Below, piece by piece: positions 1,541 through 29,348 of a DNA stretch of 29,348 nt. A program made the translations under genes and the position numbers. Every line of letters starts with the position of its first letter. Positions within the stretch are counted from its first letter, which is position 1. The DNA is from a virus: positions 1 to 29,348 of the IMG/VR virus record IMGVR_UViG_3300025616_000030. One strand, 5' to 3'. Below the pieces are notes generated by a model, which was not told the origin of the DNA, did no database searches, and was given only the letters and a program-made list of their open reading frames with translations.

Positions 1541-3550
1541 ATGAGCAATCGTTTTCACAATAAGTGGCATCGCCACAATCACAGTACATTACCCGTAGCC
1601 GGAGAAGCAGATTCTAGTCATGATCCAATTGCAAGCCCATCAGATCCATTCTTGGGATCGTTTTGTATATCTGGACAATTGAGTTCAACTAGTATATCTA
1701 CCGATCATATAACAACAAATACACTAACCGTAGATATATTATCTACAGCAAATATATTAGTAGATACCCTAACATCAACTAGTCGGATATTTTTAGCAAG
1801 TGGGTCTGCAAGTGCGCCTAGTCTTACATTCTCGAATAAACCTAATTGGGGATTTTTCGATAAAGATTCAATATCTATTGGTTTAGCTACAAACGGTAAT
1901 AGTAATTTTGTATTTTCACAAAATAGTGATTTTACTCTTAATACATCAACAAATAGTATAATATTTGGTACTGGTGATTCTACAACACCAAGATTGATAC
2001 GTTCTTCTAATAATTTACTTAATTTTGTTAATACTAATATAGCATCTACTAGCAGCATAAGTGCTAATGGAATAAGCACCTTTGGTAATATTGGAGTATA
2101 TGCAAAAGGTAATACTATCGGTGTCTATGCCAGTTCCCCATCTAATTATATGGGCAGTATTTCATCAAATGGTATTACTACTATAATATCAGCTTATCCA
2201 GATTTTAATAAACCCACTATATATGCTGATGGTAATGCTGTATTTGTAAATGCTTTATCTGCTGGTTCTATTTGGACAAATGTAATAGTTGCAGCTTCTT
2301 CGATTTCAAATGTCTTTAGTACAACTACAAACCTATTAACCAGTTTTCTATTAAGTGGTAATGATGTAAGTCTAGAACCACCTGTAGTTGCTCCAAATCC
2401 ATATACACAAACTGTATTTGTATTATCCGGTGCTGGGATATATGGGTTCAATTGGGGACAGTTCAATGGAAGCGTTAAAGTCAATAACAACTTATCTGCT
2501 AATAACATATATTCAAATAATTCATTATTGCCAAACGTAACATCTACTAATATAGTTGCTAGTTATATATCGGCTAATAGAGAATTGTTAAATTCATTGA
2601 CTGCTACCAATTCAATATTAGGATATATATCTTCTAATGAAATATTAACTAATAGATTATCTTCAACTTATGCCTTTTTGAATTATATATCCGCAAGTCA
2701 ACTATTAATTGGAACATTGACCGCAGATCAAATGCTAATAGGAACGCTAACCGCAAATCAAATGGTACTTAATAATTTGAATGTTAGTAGTATACATGTT
2801 AATAATAACGGTTGTGTGTTTACAAATAATATTAGTAGCAATACTGCTGGATATTCGGGTATTAATATTTGGAATAATATAAATCTAAACAACTATAGCG
2901 TTTCTGGTATTAATAATGGTGGTATACGCTTCCAAAATGGAATGGCAATAACTAGTGATAATACGGCAAGAATCCGATTGAGTGCATATAGTGTAGCTGA
3001 AGGAAATACTACAGTAGCATCTGGGTTAGCTAGTCATGCTGAAGGACAGGGAACCATAGCATCGGGTATTAATTCTCACGCAGAAGGGAATTCTACTACT
3101 GCTAGTACAAATAATAATAGTCATGCTGAAGGAAATTCAACATTTGCAACTGGAGAAAATAGCCATGCTGAAGGATTATCAACACAGGCAACCGGAATAA
3201 ACAGCCATGCTGAAGGATCTCATACCACAGCCAGTGGTTCACATAGCCATGCAGAAGGGTATTATACTGTCGCATCTGGAGATATGAGTCATGCCGCAGG
3301 AAGACATGCTACTGCCGATCAAACCCGAACATGGGTATGGTCTTCATATCCTGCCCCAGTTCGTCCAACAACTACTGGTCAGTTTATGGTTAGTGGAATA
3401 AATGGTGCAGTATTGGGAAATGGTGTAACACTAGATGGTGCGCTAATATTATCTAATATAGCATCAGGTGGAGTTATAGCTGGTATTGGAAGTGCCGGAA
3501 GTATAAAAGTACTTATAAATGGAGTTCAACGCAAAATTCCATATTACTAA
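1541..3550 (+). CDS. Tail fibre / receptor-binding protein with YadA-head-like repeats
   Basis: Encodes 669 aa. The N-terminus is His-rich (HNKWHRHNHST) followed by HDPIASPSDPF, probably the part that docks on the virion (inference). Residues about 40-480 are Ser/Thr/Asn-rich and low in charge, with repeated strands such as LIGTLTADQM and LIGTLTANQM, typical of a trimeric fibre shaft. Residues 498-596 hold seven SHAEG units with a 14-residue period (one of 15). This is the signature of the left-handed beta-roll in YadA-type adhesin heads, also found in phage appendages. The C-terminus ends INGVQRKIPYY. The fibre is expected to be a homotrimer acting outside the cell in host recognition. It is the only structural gene on the plus strand, reads from the divergent late promoter, and its TAA overlaps the stop of the convergent transporter gene. 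Receptor and attachment point are unknown. Confidence 0.8.
   Translation: MSNRFHNKWHRHNHSTLPVAGEADSSHDPIASPSDPFLGSFCISGQLSSTSISTDHITTNTLTVDILSTANILVDTLTSTSRIFLASGSASAPSLTFSNKPNWGFFDKDSISIGLATNGNSNFVFSQNSDFTLNTSTNSIIFGTGDSTTPRLIRSSNNLLNFVNTNIASTSSISANGISTFGNIGVYAKGNTIGVYASSPSNYMGSISSNGITTIISAYPDFNKPTIYADGNAVFVNALSAGSIWTNVIVAASSISNVFSTTTNLLTSFLLSGNDVSLEPPVVAPNPYTQTVFVLSGAGIYGFNWGQFNGSVKVNNNLSANNIYSNNSLLPNVTSTNIVASYISANRELLNSLTATNSILGYISSNEILTNRLSSTYAFLNYISASQLLIGTLTADQMLIGTLTANQMVLNNLNVSSIHVNNNGCVFTNNISSNTAGYSGINIWNNINLNNYSVSGINNGGIRFQNGMAITSDNTARIRLSAYSVAEGNTTVASGLASHAEGQGTIASGINSHAEGNSTTASTNNNSHAEGNSTFATGENSHAEGLSTQATGINSHAEGSHTTASGSHSHAEGYYTVASGDMSHAAGRHATADQTRTWVWSSYPAPVRPTTTGQFMVSGINGAVLGNGVTLDGALILSNIASGGVIAGIGSAGSIKVLINGVQRKIPYY
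2705..2764 (+). repeat. Tandem 30-bp repeat in fibre shaft (two units)
   Basis: Two adjacent 30-base units (2705-2734 and 2735-2764) encode LIGTLTADQM and LIGTLTANQM. The protein units differ at one residue, while the DNA differs at several synonymous sites. This suggests an old duplication kept for shaft structure rather than a recent slippage event. Confidence 0.75.
3032..3328 (+). repeat. Seven SHAEG coding repeats, 42-bp period
   Basis: Seven in-frame units start with Ser-His-Ala-Glu-Gly (the last is SHAAG), spaced 14 residues apart except for one 15-residue unit (SHAEGNSTTASTNNN). DNA identity between units is partial. The array encodes the beta-roll head of the fibre. Such tracts can change length by recombination and so alter the distance or avidity of the tip. 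Confidence 0.9.
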
Positions 3551-4518
3551 TCAGGCAAGGAACCTATAGTTCCTTTCGTCCAGAAAGCTCGAATGGAAGA
3601 AATTTCATCATTTTGAGCAACTATAGTCAATAATCCAACTAATATTAACAAAGCAGACCACACTGCCAATACCGCATAATATTGTCTTATGGGTGTCTTG
3701 AAATATGCCATTCCAATAGCTACGCATTTGTGACAAGGTGATAGTAGATATCCAGCAAACTCTAGTGCGAATATATAGGTGAAATATGGTAATCCGAATA
3801 TGCTAGTAAGCAATGCGGTCATGCCAGCAAATTTAGAAGAACTTCCCATAATAAATGATCCAGTAAATGCAATTAGAGATACTATAGCAAAATTATATTC
3901 GTGGGCAGATTTTTCGATATATCCTTTTATACTTCCTGCGTTTTCCTTTATAAAATTACCAGCTAATATAATAGCTAACACAAAAACAACTGTACTCCAA
4001 TTAATCCATGTATACCAAGGCTTCTTTTCTTTATTTATATCACCACGATCATCTATACTTTTTACAACCACATCATCAGGATCAAGTGACCAAATATATC
4101 CGATTAGAAATAATAAAGATAATACTAAAAGAGGAGCTGTGTACGCCAACACACTCCAATAACTCAACTTCAGTACTGCCATCGGAATTAACACAGTCTT
4201 CTCTAAAGGACTCCACAAGTAATAATGGTGTGTTGCCAGATAATCAATAATACCAAACTTAGCCCTTTTCTTAGGATCATCTGGTGCAATTGTATCTAAT
4301 AGTCCAGCCGATATAATAACTCTTCCGGGGATAGGTAAAATACCACCAATAAACGAAAGAAGAGCCACTAATACTTTTTGATTCTTTATACGTTTAATCA
4401 GATAATTATAAACTGGGATAAACAGATTATACCGTTTAACAAATCCAGAAATAAGCATTACACCAATTAATACAAGAACATACCACCATTCGCTTAAAAG
4501 ATACATATAATTTTGCAT
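3547..4518 (-). CDS. Polytopic membrane protein, DUF401-like transporter
   Basis: Encodes 323 aa with about eight hydrophobic segments (near residues 11-27, 49-64, 108-143, 174-190, 209-225, 233-258, 280-301). Two conserved-looking blocks, GGILPIPG (58-65) followed by SAGLLD, and LLSPCHKC (258-265) followed by a YFK, match my memory of the DUF401 integral-membrane family (related to ion-transporter-type permeases), in both order and topology. The segment ATHHYYLWSPLEK lies between. The protein is slightly short for that family. It would sit in the host inner membrane; the substrate is unknown. It is the last gene of the long late operon, starting 2 bases after the preceding stop (ATG 4516-4518; a TTG at 4534-4536 inside the upstream gene is less likely). 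Its C-terminal tail contains a 32-bp repeat shared with 28065-28096. DUF401 membership is probable, not proven. Confidence 0.7.
   Translation of the reverse strand: MQNYMYLLSEWWYVLVLIGVMLISGFVKRYNLFIPVYNYLIKRIKNQKVLVALLSFIGGILPIPGRVIISAGLLDTIAPDDPKKRAKFGIIDYLATHHYYLWSPLEKTVLIPMAVLKLSYWSVLAYTAPLLVLSLLFLIGYIWSLDPDDVVVKSIDDRGDINKEKKPWYTWINWSTVVFVLAIILAGNFIKENAGSIKGYIEKSAHEYNFAIVSLIAFTGSFIMGSSSKFAGMTALLTSIFGLPYFTYIFALEFAGYLLSPCHKCVAIGMAYFKTPIRQYYAVLAVWSALLILVGLLTIVAQNDEISSIRAFWTKGTIGSLPD
3557..3575. terminator. Possible bidirectional terminator hairpin
   Basis: AAGGAAC-CTATA-GTTCCTT forms a 7-bp stem with a 5-base loop immediately after the fibre stop codon and inside the last codons of the convergent transporter gene. 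It is followed by only a short T run on the plus strand, so any termination would be weak or factor-assisted. Position between converging genes is the main support. Confidence 0.35.
3593..3624. repeat. 32-bp dispersed repeat, copy 1
   Basis: This copy matches 28065-28096 at 31 of 32 bases (C at 3618, T at 28090), both read on the plus strand. Copy 1 lies in the C-terminal codons of the minus-strand transporter gene, 46 bases from the convergent stop overlap at 3547-3550. Confidence 0.9.
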
Positions 4519-4520
4519 CT

Positions 4521-7500
4521 CTATAATATACTCCAATTGTTAATCATTTGCAATAGAACATTTTCACATTCGTATAATTTTTTTATTACTCTATTATATA
4601 CTTCAGCCGCATTAATTTCATTAAGACCAACGTATATAGTATCTTTTGTATATGGTAGTGATTTGTATTCGGAAAGAGTATATGTTCTAACTATAGGTTT
4701 AAGATATTCATATACTACTGTTTTATCAACTAAGCGACCAAAACTATATAGCCAGTCTCTTTCACAATGATTAAACTCATCTGGAGCAACTTGAGAAGAA
4801 ATAACGGATGTATGAGTTATATTTCTAACAGTCTGATATCCAAATTTTCCTATTAAGCTTTGACGGAATATTTCAATATTATCATATAAACGTTGGAAAC
4901 ATCTATTGATTACCCAATCCTGCACATATTCATCCTTATTTACTAAAAGATTTTCAAGTGGCCATGTTACATCAGTTGTATCCAACTTCAGAGAAACTAT
5001 AGATAATTGATCAACATATTTCAGAATATGGTTTTTATTTATAATATACAAATTTCTATATTCATCATGAAACACATTACGGTAGTCTTTGGTATAGTCG
5101 TTGAAATCTCCTTCAGCAATAATACCCGCAGTTTCACCGGAGTCAGTAAACTTGACAACATAACCAGAATATACGATATATACGAATCCACCATCACGAC
5201 AGTTCTTTAATTTCAATCCGCCTTCTGGTATTGTATATACTGCTATAAAAGTTAATCTTGAATCGAATTTTACTATCTGAGTATTAGTTAGCACATATAC
5301 GTTTTCATCTTTATCAGTAACAATACTTATCGGTTTTTGATTATCATTAAAATATGTCGAAGTTAAAGTATTAAGCCAACTTCCAGTTCTAGTATATTTT
5401 TTAACACATTTATTATCAGTATCAGCTATCCATAATACATCTTTATCATCCATATATAAATCACTAGGACTATTGAATTTGTTTTTAGCACCTGCTCCTC
5501 CTAACCCACCCCACTCATATAACAATATCCAAGATTGAGTATTGGGTCTATATTCAAATACTATAACTCTATTTTTACTTCCTTTAGCCATATCGTTTGA
5601 ATCATAAGAGTCTAAAAGATAAATTCTTCCTTCGCTATCTAATTTTATAGATCTTATATTAATAAAATCATCACCAATAGTCTTATAGTTTCTACTGCTT
5701 ATTGGTGTTCCCCATAGATCTCCAGAAAGAATATGAACGATAGTTCCATCAGAAACATACATTACATTTTTTATAATAAAACAGCTTTGTAAATTAGTGA
5801 ACATGTGATCAATGGCTTTATCTGGATTTTCGTATCCATAACTATTACGTGGAGTATTAGTATACCATCTAGTTCTTGGTACATTATTATTATAGTACAA
5901 GGTTCCATACCATCCAATATAATCAGTCGGTGGAACATCATACAATTGTGACATGTAATTTAAGTATTCTAAATTCTCATTTAATTTTATAACACACGCA
6001 TTAAATGTATCTTTAACCACCCATTCATTTGGTGCCATTGAACAATCGTTATAATCGTGTGGCATTTCGAGTGAAGTAAAGTCAAAAATTCTAGCTATAT
6101 TTGGACTATGTTTCAAATATTCTTTCTGTACCGTAACTATATTAGTAAATAGATTTTCTAAAGTGGCAGAAGTTCCATAATAATATATATTTTGTAATCT
6201 AATATCATATGTTCCATCTACATTATAGTTAGTTACATATGGAGTATTAGTAGACATAGAAACGGTATTATTGCGATCAGTCCACACAAAGCCATCTATA
6301 GAGGTTCCTTCAGAAGAACTAAAATATGGTACTAAATTATCATATTGTACATTTTCTCCTGTAATTACAAATCTATTGGGATTATATATTAGAGGAACTA
6401 TAGGATAAGCTGATATTATTGTTATGGCATCTCCCATATGGTATAGATTCTCTAGAGTCCAATCACTTGCTGATGGATGTGCGGATAAAACAGTTAAGGT
6501 AAACCCAATCTCAGGAACAATACTCATCTCAGAAACTTCATTCTGTGGTAGTCCAAGAAAACTGTCTCCAATATCATCTACATTAATATTCAATTGCGCT
6601 GTAGCTATGGTTATGTTATAGTCAGTTGCCGCTTGTTTATGCGACCAGAAATCTGATGTAACATTAAAATAAAATGCATTTCTTCGTCCACCAAACAATG
6701 ATGATGTGGGCATAGAAGTATATCCACCAGATAGATAGAGTATATTTGGTATAGGAAGTTTCGCATACTTAAAACTATTCATATTTGCGGATATTCCTAG
6801 ATCATCTGCTCCTATCAGTTGAATATTCTTTCTATGAATTCCTGTTATACTTGCATTGGTAGTATCAGCAAAATTATTAAATGGTATTCCACCTACTGTA
6901 TCATAATATCTAGACGGCATATCCGAAGATAATGCATTAGTAAACACAGTAGCGCATACACTCATCTCAGATGAATTTGTACCTGTTTTTACTGGTATCC
7001 AAGCTGTGGCAGCAGTCGAAAATGCGGTATAGGTTAAACTCGATATTTTATTATCTAGTATATCCCATTTATATGAGGTACCAATTGCATTAGAACTCAA
7101 AAAGTAATTTTCTGTATGACCAACACCATAGCCAGTTAATAGATTAGAAGCTGCAAATGGAGATAATATACCTTGATTAGTACCGTATGACGATACCACT
7201 CTCTGCCAAGTACTTCCATTCCAGTTAAACTCTGGATATACTTCAAATCCAGAAGCAAGGGGAATAGTTGCGACTACTAGTTGTTTTGGTATTGCTTGTC
7301 TAATAAAATATTCTAGATATCCAGCCGCAGAGGTAGATACTGATAAAGTCATAGTACATATACAAGGACTTGCTGTGGCAAATGTATGAACAAATGCGGA
7401 TGGTGCATTTCCTGTAATGGTATTAAATGGTATGGCAGATACACCATCATCGAATCCAAACTCCATTATTCCAACTGAGCTTGGTGGTATTATCGATGTA

Positions 7501-8984
7501 TTTGATATAGTATAGTAAGTAAGTGCCCCCGATACTGGACGATATATAGTAGTTTGTGTATCTGGTTCATATTGAAATCTAAATTGTGGATTAAATATAG
7601 CTTCATCTAACCATTCATTAAAATCAATACTAAAATTATATACATCATAGAAATCGTCCTCTATAGAATCTCCAATTAATGCACATAATTGAAAATTAAC
7701 TGTACAAATTTTAGGAACAGTAGAAGTTGTATCTGGTGTTATTCTTATAATTAAATTATCAATATTACTTGCTTCTGAAATAAAATCAAAACTATATTGA
7801 TTTATATCATCAGCATAATTAGCATATACAATGGGATTATCACAACTCCAAACAATAGATTGGTTACTTCCTATATTATGTGCTACGCTATCCGTTATTC
7901 CAACTGCCTGTATTGAATACTTGTAAGTATTTTCTTCGTTTTCTAATCTAATAACTCTTGCTGATATGTCTGATGAAGTTTCCAAATATTGATATGGCCT
8001 GAAAAATCCAGATACTTTACCAGAGAATGAACATAGAGCATATGTATAGCTATCTGTTAAATCTGAAGTAGCTAATTTAATTATACCTATATTGGATGCC
8101 AAATCTACCGTTCCGAATGGATAGGTAGTATTAAATGCTGGATTTCCTTTCAACGCACTCAATGAAGTGTCATTATCAATAGTCCATACTAATGGAGTGT
8201 TTGATGGTGCTGGATCATCTAATTTTACTGCACATAGTATGGTACTAGATGTATCCGCAGATAATACATAAACCTGAACACTTGGATTAAGTGTTACCTT
8301 TGTGCTTGGTAGATTGAAAAAATAAGACGCAGATAATGGACTATTTTTGAATTGGGTATCTGTAGAGTCTGATGTAACAGTAAAATCTATATCTGTCTCA
8401 TTGCCTATATATTTAGCTGATAACTGTTTAGCACCAGCACTACCAAGTCCCGAAAAGATAGCTATTCCAGATGGTGAACTATAATTAATCAAATTTTTCC
8501 AGTTACCATCCCCAATACTAGCAGATAATCCTGAATATACAGGAGATATGGTCCATTCAACAAAATCATATTTTGTTATATTACTTCGGACATTACTCGA
8601 AACTTCACTAAAGTACGTACTTAATACTGCAACCGTATCGGTTAAATTAACTATCGAATTATCTACATATTTAGGCAAAATCACAGCAGTCGCACTTCCA
8701 ACACCCGGAATATACGAAGATATATAAAAATATTGTATATCGTTAAAAGCAGTTAAATATATACCATTGATATTAGCAGTTGATGCTACTCCCCATGCAA
8801 AATTATTATTATTTAGCTTTGTAGCTATTGCAATAGAAGTATCATAATAAATATCAGTTTGTGAATCTGTTGGTATAGTAAACAAATTCCACGCAATATT
8901 TTGATTTGTGGGATATCCCTTGGCGGTAATAGTAAATATTACCGATTCTGTTGCAACTAGTTCAACTATTATATCGTATGCCAT
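4521..8984 (-). CDS. Giant virion protein with NHL-like propeller (1487 aa)
   Basis: Most of the protein (about residues 1-880) is Ser/Thr/Asn-rich beta structure that looks like a string of Ig-like modules. Residues about 881-935 resemble a PKD/Ig fold (YDNLVPYFSSSEG ... GTYDIRL). Residues about 1075-1325 contain NHL-type beta-propeller blades (SPSDLYMDDKDVLWIADTDN, ISIVTDKDENVYVLT). Two similar amphipathic helices flank the propeller (near 985 and 1350). The C-terminus is helical. No enzyme motif is visible. It lies in a run of baseplate genes, starting 1 base after the stop of the LamG gene. It is probably a peripheral baseplate or fibre-associated structural protein exposed on the virion; the propeller would mediate protein or glycan contact (inference). 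Confidence 0.65.
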   Translation of the reverse strand: MAYDIIVELVATESVIFTITAKGYPTNQNIAWNLFTIPTDSQTDIYYDTSIAIATKLNNNNFAWGVASTANINGIYLTAFNDIQYFYISSYIPGVGSATAVILPKYVDNSIVNLTDTVAVLSTYFSEVSSNVRSNITKYDFVEWTISPVYSGLSASIGDGNWKNLINYSSPSGIAIFSGLGSAGAKQLSAKYIGNETDIDFTVTSDSTDTQFKNSPLSASYFFNLPSTKVTLNPSVQVYVLSADTSSTILCAVKLDDPAPSNTPLVWTIDNDTSLSALKGNPAFNTTYPFGTVDLASNIGIIKLATSDLTDSYTYALCSFSGKVSGFFRPYQYLETSSDISARVIRLENEENTYKYSIQAVGITDSVAHNIGSNQSIVWSCDNPIVYANYADDINQYSFDFISEASNIDNLIIRITPDTTSTVPKICTVNFQLCALIGDSIEDDFYDVYNFSIDFNEWLDEAIFNPQFRFQYEPDTQTTIYRPVSGALTYYTISNTSIIPPSSVGIMEFGFDDGVSAIPFNTITGNAPSAFVHTFATASPCICTMTLSVSTSAAGYLEYFIRQAIPKQLVVATIPLASGFEVYPEFNWNGSTWQRVVSSYGTNQGILSPFAASNLLTGYGVGHTENYFLSSNAIGTSYKWDILDNKISSLTYTAFSTAATAWIPVKTGTNSSEMSVCATVFTNALSSDMPSRYYDTVGGIPFNNFADTTNASITGIHRKNIQLIGADDLGISANMNSFKYAKLPIPNILYLSGGYTSMPTSSLFGGRRNAFYFNVTSDFWSHKQAATDYNITIATAQLNINVDDIGDSFLGLPQNEVSEMSIVPEIGFTLTVLSAHPSASDWTLENLYHMGDAITIISAYPIVPLIYNPNRFVITGENVQYDNLVPYFSSSEGTSIDGFVWTDRNNTVSMSTNTPYVTNYNVDGTYDIRLQNIYYYGTSATLENLFTNIVTVQKEYLKHSPNIARIFDFTSLEMPHDYNDCSMAPNEWVVKDTFNACVIKLNENLEYLNYMSQLYDVPPTDYIGWYGTLYYNNNVPRTRWYTNTPRNSYGYENPDKAIDHMFTNLQSCFIIKNVMYVSDGTIVHILSGDLWGTPISSRNYKTIGDDFINIRSIKLDSEGRIYLLDSYDSNDMAKGSKNRVIVFEYRPNTQSWILLYEWGGLGGAGAKNKFNSPSDLYMDDKDVLWIADTDNKCVKKYTRTGSWLNTLTSTYFNDNQKPISIVTDKDENVYVLTNTQIVKFDSRLTFIAVYTIPEGGLKLKNCRDGGFVYIVYSGYVVKFTDSGETAGIIAEGDFNDYTKDYRNVFHDEYRNLYIINKNHILKYVDQLSIVSLKLDTTDVTWPLENLLVNKDEYVQDWVINRCFQRLYDNIEIFRQSLIGKFGYQTVRNITHTSVISSQVAPDEFNHCERDWLYSFGRLVDKTVVYEYLKPIVRTYTLSEYKSLPYTKDTIYVGLNEINAAEVYNRVIKKLYECENVLLQMINNWSIL

Positions 8985-26908: not shown

Positions 26909-27391
26909 TTACACCGTAAATCCTTGTCTATTTAATAATCCTTTCAGATTAAGCTTTTCGCCTTTCTTTAGAAACGGAACTTCTAAGATTAAAGTTATTT
27001 CATATTCGTTTCTATCTTCATACCCATCAATATTAATATTTACTATCTTTACCCTTGGTTCCCACTTTTCTATTGATTTTGATATCGTTCTGCCGATAAA
27101 TCTAGCATTTGAGTCTGTTACCGTTTCAAAGATAAATTGACGCAGATCACACCCATAATCTGGCAATAATATACGTTCTCCGGGAAGTGTATTGAATAGA
27201 TTAACTATAGAATTCTTGATAGCATTAAGATCATATGCCACTTTCATATCCTTTCCACTTCCTGAAATATATCTATTTCCTATTACAGATTCAAAGGGTT
27301 CTTGGGTAAAATCTAAGAACAAATCAGTATACGTATAGCTCTTTTGACTATAATTCGTATTTTTTAGGTTATTAAAATTGATTGATGCCAT
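26909..27391 (-). CDS. 25: Baseplate wedge protein gp25 (GPW/gp25 family)
   Basis: Encodes 160 aa (T4 gp25 is 132). It has the family hallmarks: a helix ending in NTLPGERILLPDYGCDLRQF (67-86), then a helix leading to the strictly conserved EPR triplet (111-113) and paired strands to the C-terminus. gp25 is the sheath-like wedge protein that starts sheath assembly and has relatives in type VI secretion and phage P2 (gpW). I place the start at ATG 27389-27391, preceded by GAGAGG six bases away. An in-frame ATG at 27410-27412 lies inside the late promoter region and could not be on the mRNA made from it. It is the first gene of the 24-kb minus-strand late operon. Confidence 0.88.
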   Translation of the reverse strand: MASINFNNLKNTNYSQKSYTYTDLFLDFTQEPFESVIGNRYISGSGKDMKVAYDLNAIKNSIVNLFNTLPGERILLPDYGCDLRQFIFETVTDSNARFIGRTISKSIEKWEPRVKIVNINIDGYEDRNEYEITLILEVPFLKKGEKLNLKGLLNRQGFTV

Positions 27392-27409
27392 ATTTTTATC
27401 CCTCTCTAA

Positions 27410-27423
27410 CATAAATATTTATA
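27410..27423. promoter_or_regulatory. Divergent T4-type late promoter before gp25 operon
   Basis: On the minus strand TATAAATA lies at 27416-27423, 24 bases before the gp25-like ATG. On the plus strand the one-mismatch octamer CATAAATA lies at 27410-27417, 34 bases before the ATG of the plus-strand gene. The element shares an exact 16-mer with the divergent gap at 1463-1478. It would initiate the long baseplate operon to the left and the small plus-strand gene to the right. Assignment rests on motif, repetition and position. Confidence 0.72.
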
Positions 27424-27451
27424 CGAAATGGATAATATTAAAGGAGTTGTG

Positions 27452-28105
27452 ATGAATAAATTTAAAGGCAAATTCGAACAGATTCATGAAGAAACGTTAT
27501 ATCGCTACCAGCAAGGTGGCTTTTTGCGTGGAGATTATGCTAAAATCAAGAAGGATGCACTTAAGTCAGAAAAGATAGAATCTCTTTCTGACCAAATGAA
27601 AGCTATCCTACAAGATGCTATAAAGAATGAAACAGTACTACGTGTCAGTTATATCAAATCTGGTAAGTCCGAAGCCTATAGTGGCCCCGTAGATGCCGCT
27701 AATATCCCCCACTGCGACCTTTGGGCCGATTGTTATGTAGAACACGCCCCCGGCATGTGGCACAGCGTAATGACCATTCCCCTGTCTATTCTTGAAAAGA
27801 TAGAAGTAGAAGGTGCCGAAGGATATGCCCCATATAATAAGAATCTGGTTCGCCCCAATACAGATGAACCTGATGGCGAGAGAAAGGAACTCGACAAGCA
27901 AACTATGGGTAAAGATGAAAGTAGGAATCTTGGTAAGAAGAATACTAAGTTAGCTAATACCAAAGAACCTAAAGATGGTCGTAGTCAGGCCAAGTTAAAG
28001 GAAAATGTTGGATTTCATGAAGAAAATGATCTGATGTTTGAGACTTATAGACATAGTTACTCAGATGGAAGAAATTTCATCATTTTGAGTAACTATCTTA
28101 CCTAA
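27452..28105 (+). CDS. Hypothetical phage protein, GC-rich core (217 aa)
   Basis: The product begins MNKFKGKFEQIHEETLYRYQQGGFLRGDYAKI. Residues about 30-60 are helical, residues 62-125 are a mixed alpha/beta core with His, Cys and Trp (PHCDLWADCYVEHAPGMWH), and residues 135-190 are a Lys/Glu/Asp-rich tail that looks disordered. I do not recognise a function. The start ATG 27452-27454 has AAGGAG five bases upstream; an in-frame ATG at 27428 lacks one. It is transcribed away from the gp25 operon from the shared late promoter, so it is probably a late gene. The core segment uses many C-ending codons and is much richer in GC than its neighbours. Its last codons contain the 32-bp repeat shared with the transporter gene, and its stop overlaps the stop of the clamp-loader gene. 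Confidence 0.7.
   Translation: MNKFKGKFEQIHEETLYRYQQGGFLRGDYAKIKKDALKSEKIESLSDQMKAILQDAIKNETVLRVSYIKSGKSEAYSGPVDAANIPHCDLWADCYVEHAPGMWHSVMTIPLSILEKIEVEGAEGYAPYNKNLVRPNTDEPDGERKELDKQTMGKDESRNLGKKNTKLANTKEPKDGRSQAKLKENVGFHEENDLMFETYRHSYSDGRNFIILSNYLT
28065..28096. repeat. 32-bp dispersed repeat, copy 2
   Basis: This copy is 31/32 identical to 3593-3624, in the same plus-strand orientation. Here it codes for the last residues (DGRNFIILSNY) of the plus-strand hypothetical protein and ends 6 bases before the convergent stop overlap at 28102-28105. Confidence 0.9.
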
Positions 28106-29268
28106 TTCAACAATTTATTCAATTGAATGAAACAACAGAATGCATTAATTTCAAAATCCATTACGAACTGATGTTTGTACATAGCATCTCCAATTAATAC
28201 CAGAGATTGTGCTTTGTTTGCATCTTTAATATCAGACGCATATATTTCCTCAAACAATCCCTTCAACAATACCAAGTAATCTGAATTGAATTCGGTTTCG
28301 TTCTGGATTATGTATTCTCGTATAACTGATATATTCTTCTCTGATGATATCTTCTTAAACACTTCCTTGGCGAATAGACTAGTACCCTTATCCTTAGTTA
28401 TAGTCAGTACCCCATCTTTGGTATACTTTTGCAATAGCCCTATGGTCTTCCTAATGTCAGGATAGTTTGATATTACCAATTCCTTCAATAGTGGCTTCTG
28501 TTCATCACTAACGCTTATATTTTCATTGGTTATAATGTATGCTATACGTGCCATCACCTCTTTAATAGGCGGCATGATTTCAAATGGAATTGTACGAGAT
28601 CGTAATGGTACTATAATTTTATTTTTATAGTTTGCGGTCATGATGAAACGGAGATTATCACTATATTCTTCCATTACATTACGCAGTGCTCTCATCGCTT
28701 CTACGGTTTGGCCGTCAATTTCGTCCAAAATTATTATTTTGAGCTTTCCATCAATAGATTTAGTCTGAGCAAATGGAACAATCTTATCTCTGATACTATC
28801 AATTCCGCGCTCGTCACTGGCATTGATATATCTATAGACTGCATCTAATTCTTTGACTAATATTTTTGCTAAAGTAGTGTTATGATGTATAATTCCATTC
28901 GGAGTTACGTATAGATGTGGCGCATCTATAGAAATATCATATACATCATCATATTTTATAAAACATCTATTTGTTATGTTTATATATCCATCGATAGTTA
29001 ATATATTTTGTGCGTATTTGACTTGCGTCGGAACATCATCTGATATAATAATATGCTTATCAGAACACATAAAAGATATACCATTTTCTAAGGTAATTTG
29101 ATAAATTGCATTATTGTGTTTTTTTACATATCCTATTATTGGGGTTAGTTGGTTTTCTGGTGTTTTTATATAAATTTGATCTGCTACTGTCTGAAGCTCT
29201 TCATATTTATTGTTATCTACCTCTAGACATTTAAATAGATCTTTGATTTTTATTGCTACTTTATTCAT
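28102..29268 (-). CDS. 44: Clamp-loader ATPase gp44, C-terminal piece fused to split-intein C-part
   Basis: Encodes 388 aa in two parts. Residues 1-130 are intein: IKIKDLF as in the strands after block A, block B ENGISFMCSDKHIII (H72), block F DDVYDISIDAPHLYV, and block G ending HHN (H129, N130) with Thr131 as the +1 nucleophile. Residues 131-388 are the C-extein, a gp44-type AAA+ clamp loader: TTLAK is the second half of the P-loop, then RGIDSIRDK, Walker B IIILDEID (D182, E183), sensor 1 MTAN (211-213), the SRT arginine-finger motif (R225), PDIRKTIG and a C-terminal oligomerisation region. The C-extein is about as long as T4 gp44 after its P-loop. There is no GxGK and no intein block A in this reading frame, so the N-extein and IntN must be encoded elsewhere, presumably beyond the right edge. 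After trans-splicing the protein would load the sliding clamp for replication and late transcription. The ATG overlaps the endonuclease gene by 8 bases. Confidence 0.85.
   Translation of the reverse strand: MNKVAIKIKDLFKCLEVDNNKYEELQTVADQIYIKTPENQLTPIIGYVKKHNNAIYQITLENGISFMCSDKHIIISDDVPTQVKYAQNILTIDGYINITNRCFIKYDDVYDISIDAPHLYVTPNGIIHHNTTLAKILVKELDAVYRYINASDERGIDSIRDKIVPFAQTKSIDGKLKIIILDEIDGQTVEAMRALRNVMEEYSDNLRFIMTANYKNKIIVPLRSRTIPFEIMPPIKEVMARIAYIITNENISVSDEQKPLLKELVISNYPDIRKTIGLLQKYTKDGVLTITKDKGTSLFAKEVFKKISSEKNISVIREYIIQNETEFNSDYLVLLKGLFEEIYASDIKDANKAQSLVLIGDAMYKHQFVMDFEINAFCCFIQLNKLLN
28879..29268 (-). other. Split-intein C-part (IntC, about 130 residues)
   Basis: The segment runs from the start codon to Asn130 (codon 28879-28881). 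It contains splicing blocks B, F and G but not block A with its first Cys/Ser. Only an estimated 10-20 intein residues are therefore missing, which implies an unusually short N-part, similar in type to the known 25-residue IntN of the AceL-TerL intein. No endonuclease domain is present within it. The splice junction K|T lies inside the P-loop of the host protein. Confidence 0.8.
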
Positions 29269-29348
29269 TTAAAAATTTTATACACCTTTCTATTGTTTCG
29301 TTTTTGTTTTGTTTAAAATCATTTTCCCATATAATCAGATATCCAAAT
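29261..29348 (-). CDS. C-terminal end of free-standing (Vsr-like?) homing endonuclease, partial
   Basis: Only the last 28 codons and TAA lie in the window; the gene starts beyond the right edge. The visible tail contains GYLIIWENDF, then a Lys/Glu/Asn-rich helix ending CIKFLNE. A strand ending in IWE followed by a helix is what I expect at the end of Vsr/EDxHD-fold endonucleases that sit between the halves of split-intein genes. It overlaps the start of the IntC-clamp-loader gene by 8 bases (ATGAATAA). An enzyme of this type would cut intein-free alleles and spread the locus. The family call is tentative because no catalytic residues are in view; context carries much of the weight. Confidence 0.55.
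   Translation of the reverse strand, partial: FGYLIIWENDFKQNKNETIERCIKFLNE

Follow-up and report, generated by a model that had tools for sequence, protein, structure and literature searches.

A gp44 clamp-loader gene probably fractured at its P-loop by an atypically split intein

How can a clamp-loader ATPase be made from a gene that begins in the middle of its own ATP-binding motif? The question is raised by the last part of the virus record IMGVR_UViG_3300025616_000030 in IMG/VR, all 29,348 nucleotides of which were analysed and are called the window here. On its minus strand, at 28102–29268, a 388-residue open reading frame (ORF) with an ATG start encodes the C-terminal part of an intein (IntC, residues 1–130) followed by a gp44-type clamp loader (residue 131 onward). 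From sequence comparisons we consider it very probable that a fractured gp44 gene has its C-terminal piece in this ORF, that the ORF carries one part of an atypically split intein and would be trans-spliced to its partner, and that an endonuclease gene, or a remnant of one, lies between the halves.

The clamp-loader frame and its intein half

From residue 131 the ORF reads TTLAKILVKELDAVYRYINASDERG, and this C-terminal extein (C-extein) aligns with phrog_168 over positions 56–309 (E 5.6e-55), matches Gp44_lid (7.7e-12) and AAA (2e-8) in Pfam, has RFC-S and T4 gp44 among its PDB profile matches, and finds its best fold matches in the T4 clamp loader (gp44) structures. It has the AAA+ core, the Walker B DE, the lid and collar and the homology to T4 gp44 that define the protein. 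What it lacks is a complete Walker A GxGKT in one polypeptide: the ORF begins at the Thr of that motif, a pattern search of the 388-residue frame for GxGK found none, and it is therefore a fragment of gp44 rather than gp44 by itself.

The point of interruption can be read from intein-free relatives. Two of these, L003 and L005 (L numbers denote the loci compared), are syntenic with the window, have C-exteins about 70% identical to its own, and run straight through the motif as GPAGTGK/TTLAKILVKELDAVYRYINASDERG in L003 (longer, GPAGTGKTTLAKILVKELDAVYRYINASDERG) and GQAGTGK/TTLSK in L005 (longer, GQAGTGKTTLSK). The closest gp44 relatives, 65–72% identical to the C-extein, are uninterrupted where read, and GxGKT/S is intact in 84 of 85 close gp44 relatives checked, the remaining one being truncated by the end of its contig. 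Together these place the HHN/TTLAK junction exactly between the Lys and the Thr of the P-loop.

Residues 1–130 end in VYDISIDAPHLYVTPNGIIHHN (blocks F and G), with block B near CSDKH72, and have the features of a split intein, namely a HINT fold, blocks F and G, and a terminal HN followed by Thr (VYDISIDAPHLYVTPNGIIHHN/T). A hidden Markov model (HMM) of IntC, built on six other loci with the window excluded, matches only this frame in the window and does so over its full length (1–129, E 1.8e-39), and a profile of 12 IntC segments matches solved inteins that include gp41-1, VidaL and CatC (consensus atypical intein). The catalytic positions are conserved among divergent IntCs, and the window ORF keeps all of the splice residues. 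The predicted structure of the 130 residues (predicted local distance difference test score, pLDDT, 87.9) has intein fold matches with Z up to 14.4; across matches of Z 10–14, residues 1–3 of the model mostly align with residues 12–19 of the solved inteins, the IntC model thus matching inteins without about their first 13–18 residues, so that no more would be missing than the N-terminal strands that contain block A. This starting point, and an N-terminal intein part (IntN) of 21–33 residues in relatives, agree with the atypical kind of split, which lies near the N-terminus and leaves an IntN of about 15–37 residues. Judged by its sequence and predicted structure, the window IntC is the C-part of an intein split near its N-terminus and not at the usual endonuclease site.

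Immediately upstream, the 80 nt that precede IntC hold a single frame open to the contig edge, FGYLIIWENDFKQNKNETIERCIKFLNE, whose stop at 29261 makes it overlap the IntC ATG (29268) by 8 nt. A further HMM, built from the last 120 residues of the endonucleases at other fractured loci and again excluding the window, matches this stub at model positions 89–116 of 118 (E 4e-6; the runner-up in the window has E 1.5), and phrog_22677 aligns with it at 326–348 of 353 (E 0.016). The preliminary description of this DNA had reported intein blocks B, F and G with an HHN end running into TTLAK and the C-terminal part of gp44, the lack of GxGK in the frame, and the tail of a Vsr-like gene overlapping by eight bases; all of this is borne out, and the HMM searches that it proposed for residues 1–130 and 131–388 returned intein and gp44, respectively.

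The coordinates of these features (Table 1) suggest how the protein could be assembled. The first precursor, encoded just past the contig edge, would run from the gp44 N-terminus to the P-loop Lys and continue into a Cys-led IntN (expected to be 21–33 residues), and the second would be the window ORF, with IntC leading into gp44 from the P-loop Thr. Docking of IntN on IntC would rebuild the HINT fold and permit splicing in trans by established intein chemistry, in which an acyl shift at Cys1 is followed by transfer to Thr+1 and cyclisation of Asn130. GxGK would be joined scarlessly to TTLAK, and the Walker A motif would exist in the product only. Since the ATP-binding Lys and the Mg-contacting Thr would reside on separate polypeptides, it is sound to expect that neither half would be an ATPase before splicing. 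The gene of a Vsr-like homing endonuclease, or at a minimum the tail of that gene, would separate the halves; insertion of the endonuclease gene probably caused the split, and this gene is probably what mobilises the locus. We infer from the comparisons the N-half in the window phage, the splicing activity, the dependence on splicing, and the cutting and homing by the endonuclease.

Table 1. Positions in the window of the split gp44 gene, its predicted parts and its neighbours
Feature	Position	Strand	Basis
IntC, C-part of atypically split intein, 130 aa, terminus HHN	28879..29268	-	IntC HMM, PDB profile, fold matches
C-extein, gp44 clamp-loader ATPase from P-loop Thr (+1) to C-terminus, 258 aa	28105..28878	-	phrog_168, T4 gp44 structures
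Stop codon of IntC-gp44 ORF	28102-28104	-	
Predicted splice junction N130/T131, equivalent to GxGK/T of intein-free relatives	28878..28879	-	L003/L005 comparison
C-terminal tail (28 aa) of putative Vsr-like homing endonuclease gene, open to contig edge	29261..29348	-	endonuclease-tail HMM
Convergent neighbour gene, 225 aa; 4-nt overlap with gp44 stop	27428..28105	+	same order in L003/L005
Baseplate wedge gp25 homologue, synteny marker	26909..27412	-	PF04965 E 7e-17; same order in L003/L005

The gene order gp44, convergent gene, gp25 is common to the window and L003/L005; a dUTPase flanks the other side of gp44 in L003/L005, and L005 has one additional gene that separates gp44 from the convergent gene. 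The latter had no match in a Pfam search, and since it is 225 residues long in the window, 332 in L003 and 241 in L005, its 3′ end evidently varies.

Relatives with both halves, and other explanations

The contig ends 80 nt upstream of the IntC ATG, so neither the N-half nor the main part of the endonuclease falls within the record. No nucleotide relatives of the window were found among phage records, and six exact peptide patterns for close relatives of the intein part returned none, but alignment and junction-pattern searches succeeded. In L091, a 63.9 kb contig, the N-half is an 80-residue ORF whose extein ends LLSGSAGIGK and which reads IPHLLLSGSAGIGK/CLDGNEEILVEIDITTLTSDQIERLSKFKI up to its stop codon. 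A 170-residue Vsr-like ORF overlaps it by 4 nt and is followed by IntC-gp44, the start of which overlaps the end of the endonuclease and lies at the same starting point as that of the window ORF. This endonuclease has a Vsr core (EYNGSFWHADE), weak but coherent Vsr matches (1cw0, E 0.05) and a clear match to phrog_22677 (E 1.4e-14). The N-half of L091 covers positions 8–55 of phrog_168 and the window C-extein positions 56–309, so that the two pieces of gp44 abut.

An alignment scan with IntC and its follow-up identified both gp44 halves in 16 distinct viral loci (L091 and 15 others), with the N-half upstream and in the same orientation. The N-half ends in GxGK/Cys followed by an IntN of 21–33 residues, a gap of 35–1541 nt follows, and the IntC of 118–148 residues ends in HN/T. 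The N-half is retained in all 16 relatives that have upstream sequence; in L102, as in the window, the contig is cut before it. The fractured arrangement that the preliminary description proposed, with N-extein and IntN, endonuclease, then IntC and C-extein, is complete in independent loci such as L091, and in many of the 16 the gap is occupied by a Vsr-like or HNH endonuclease gene or its fossil tail; the window itself displays the IntC half and the endonuclease tail.

Several observations weigh on the other side. A search of the whole 29,348-base record for the N-extein and IntN found neither, and an N-half belonging to the window's own gp44 clade, sought among viral contigs with one pattern (FCGxAGTGKC), was not found. 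The visible endonuclease amounts to 80 nt, or its last 28 residues. The Pfam intein score of the window IntC alone is 18.9 bits, under the cut-off of 35.8, though the profile and structure matches are clear. Finally, in Vibrio phage vB_VmeM-32, which has a related IntC in gp41 (see below), the N-terminal region of gp41 spans several frames, and this weakens the functional support that it provides.

Could the ORF be a dead relic, the decaying remnant of an intein and endonuclease invasion in a phage that obtains gp44 function from another, intact copy or from its host? The record covers a 29 kb part of the genome, and the endonucleases of some relatives (L100, L107, L116) are broken, both of which would suit a relic. 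However, the 388-residue frame is open, its C-extein retains about 70% identity to intact gp44 together with every splice residue, no second gp44 was found in the 63.9 kb record of L091, and both halves persist in 16/16 relatives with upstream sequence, so we regard a relic as improbable.

Still less probable is a contiguous mini-intein gp44 that seems split through a sequencing or assembly frameshift. Contiguous mini-inteins do occur at the same site (L007, L088–L090, L139), and the IntCs of L113 (split) and L089 (contiguous) are identical at 112/123 positions, which points to a close evolutionary relationship between split and unsplit forms. In the window, however, a stop codon immediately precedes the ATG in the IntC reading frame, the 80 nt upstream match an endonuclease tail rather than an IntN tail, and the split relatives begin at the same point. 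These observations also speak against the contiguous upstream frame with GxGK that the preliminary description had set against its own proposal. As for an RNA intron bearing an endonuclease gene and excised before translation, phages often have such arrangements, the Jug phages (PMC12363816) being an example, but the idea is hardly credible here because the window end, L091, L106 and L118 gave no match in an Rfam search, the sequence preceding TTLAK encodes a HINT-fold intein, and both halves bear their own intein parts in relatives.

Endonuclease remnants and the wider intein family

In the fractured relatives, what the gap between the halves holds of an endonuclease differs with the length of the gap. 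A full endonuclease gene is present in L117, L118, L119, L125, L154, L109 and L120; among the long gaps, Vsr-like genes occur in, for example, L118, L119, L125 and L154, a gene with a DUF559 match in L109 and an HNH gene in L120. The broken gene of L116 is also of the HNH type. Short gaps keep the last ~30–40 codons only, Vsr-like in L106, L113 and L132 and HNH-like in L121 and L126 (L113 and L132 were recognised by HMM; L106, L121 and L126 by eye from printed frames). In short-gap loci the start codon of IntC falls within or beside the endonuclease tail, which may account for the survival of the tail. The stub in the window may be such a fossil tail or may terminate an intact endonuclease gene.

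In some relatives gp44 seems to be in three pieces (L101:5729-7721, L102:1074-4300, L116:4698-9300, L120:676-4700, L154:4979-9400, L113:2323-3547), with another intein, of the canonically split type, close to Walker B (IDE or LDE/C...) in addition to the one in the P-loop, and a third piece that begins ...SN or HN/C[DN]; in L113 this third piece lies beyond the contig. If the three-piece gene is real, two trans-splicing events would be needed.

In the IntC tree the window forms a group with L100 and L102 (95/80), and this group stands next to RadA-like and gp41 IntCs (90/94). By identity the nearest IntCs are those of L104 gp44 (48%) and L103 gp41 (44%), and the window extein is closest to intein-free phages. 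These affinities fit transfer of the intein between P-loop sites, the deep nodes of the tree being weak. Among 50,697 phage records, the sole gp44 relative of the window IntC is the contiguous one in LR756508, and the remaining relatives are in Campylobacter phage terminases and in gp41 of Vibrio phage vB_VmeM-32.

Other IntCs that belong to this family stand before Thr in L103, L105, L108, L114, L122, L123, L124, L130, L135 and L132, and also in L137, L140, L142, L133, L138, L141, L143, L145 and L149. The apparent P-loop hosts in this L103–L149 set, named by eye from the extein, are gp41, RadA-like, UvsX, UvsW-like and Clp-like ATPases; the non-gp44 loci mostly have an upstream N-half with GK/Cys, and L141 holds two IntC frames. 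In the isolate vB_VmeM-32 (L155, KU160494.1 62410-70709), the gp41 helicase is split by a related IntC and a 378-residue probable endonuclease, the IntC-gp41 ORF is unannotated, and UvsX is interrupted by a second intein piece together with a SegG-like endonuclease. In L007 (LR756508.1, a 484 kb phage), a TnpB-like gene immediately follows gp44, and intein-like sequence ending VVHN precedes a DNA polymerase TDSVFY motif (2508-4373 and 7224-8438).

We find it reasonably likely that atypically split inteins form a so far undescribed, mobile family specialised for the P-loop GK/T sites of gp44, gp41, RadA-like, UvsX, Clp and UvsW-like proteins, in which endonuclease insertion would make the fracture, fossil tails would outlive the endonuclease, and some gp44 would be cut in three. 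To assemble a replisome, the host phages would in that case have to ligate its ATPases after translation.

Relation to known split inteins and fractured genes

A partial literature search found no paper on a split intein in gp44 or a clamp loader, and within the literature and records searched gp44 is a new host gene for the fractured-gene, split-intein kind, the kind itself being already known. An essential replication ATPase would be added to the list of naturally fractured genes. The relatives supply many natural split inteins with a short IntN, a type of which only a handful are described in the literature searched, and a short IntN is wanted for protein semisynthesis. The L113/L089 pair and the fossil endonuclease tails offer a direct view of how inteins become split, and the GK/T split makes it testable whether splicing times the onset of phage replication.

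Dassa et al. reportedly described in 2009 genes that are fractured by split inteins and associated with Vsr-like endonucleases. In the relatives that retain the complete locus, the likeness to that type includes a cut at a conserved motif in a phage replication gene, the order N-extein-IntN, free-standing endonuclease, IntC-C-extein, and the Vsr-like endonuclease, of which the window shows the tail. The differences are a host gene that is gp44, a split placed close to the N-terminus of the intein (IntN 21–33 residues in relatives) instead of the canonical endonuclease position, and the loss, in several relatives of the window, of the endonuclease body with retention of its tail.

The atypically split inteins VidaL, AceL-TerL, GOS-TerL and PolB16 have a short IntN (15–37 residues) and a long IntC (PMC13014065, PMC11766414, PMC10189870), and these are the few natural cases listed (PMC13014065). 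The IntC profile matches VidaL 6vgv and Cat 6dsl (fold Z 12.8 and 12.0), and relatives of the window IntC are found in Campylobacter phage terminases. Nevertheless, the window IntC is only about 18–20% identical to VidaL and Cat in structural alignments, and it differs from the VidaL/AceL-TerL class in its host gene, its Cys1/Thr+1 pair (Cys1 being known from relatives) and its P-loop GK/T site.

RFC is listed among intein hosts (PMC5874633). The archaeal RFC small-subunit inteins (PRK04132 models) interrupt a homologous ATPase, and NF003159 aligns across the window intein/extein junction (E 7.4e-31), so the archaeal insertion site would be the same or very near. Archaeal RFC inteins are contiguous and usually have an endonuclease domain, whereas the window intein is split. 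In this it resembles gp41-1 (6qaz), of a phage split-intein family, to which it is related by profile (E 3.6e-6) and fold (Z 12.2). The gp41-1 intein is canonically split, with a long IntN and a short IntC, in the helicase gene gp41; that of the window would have a short IntN, as in its relatives, and has a long IntC, in gp44.
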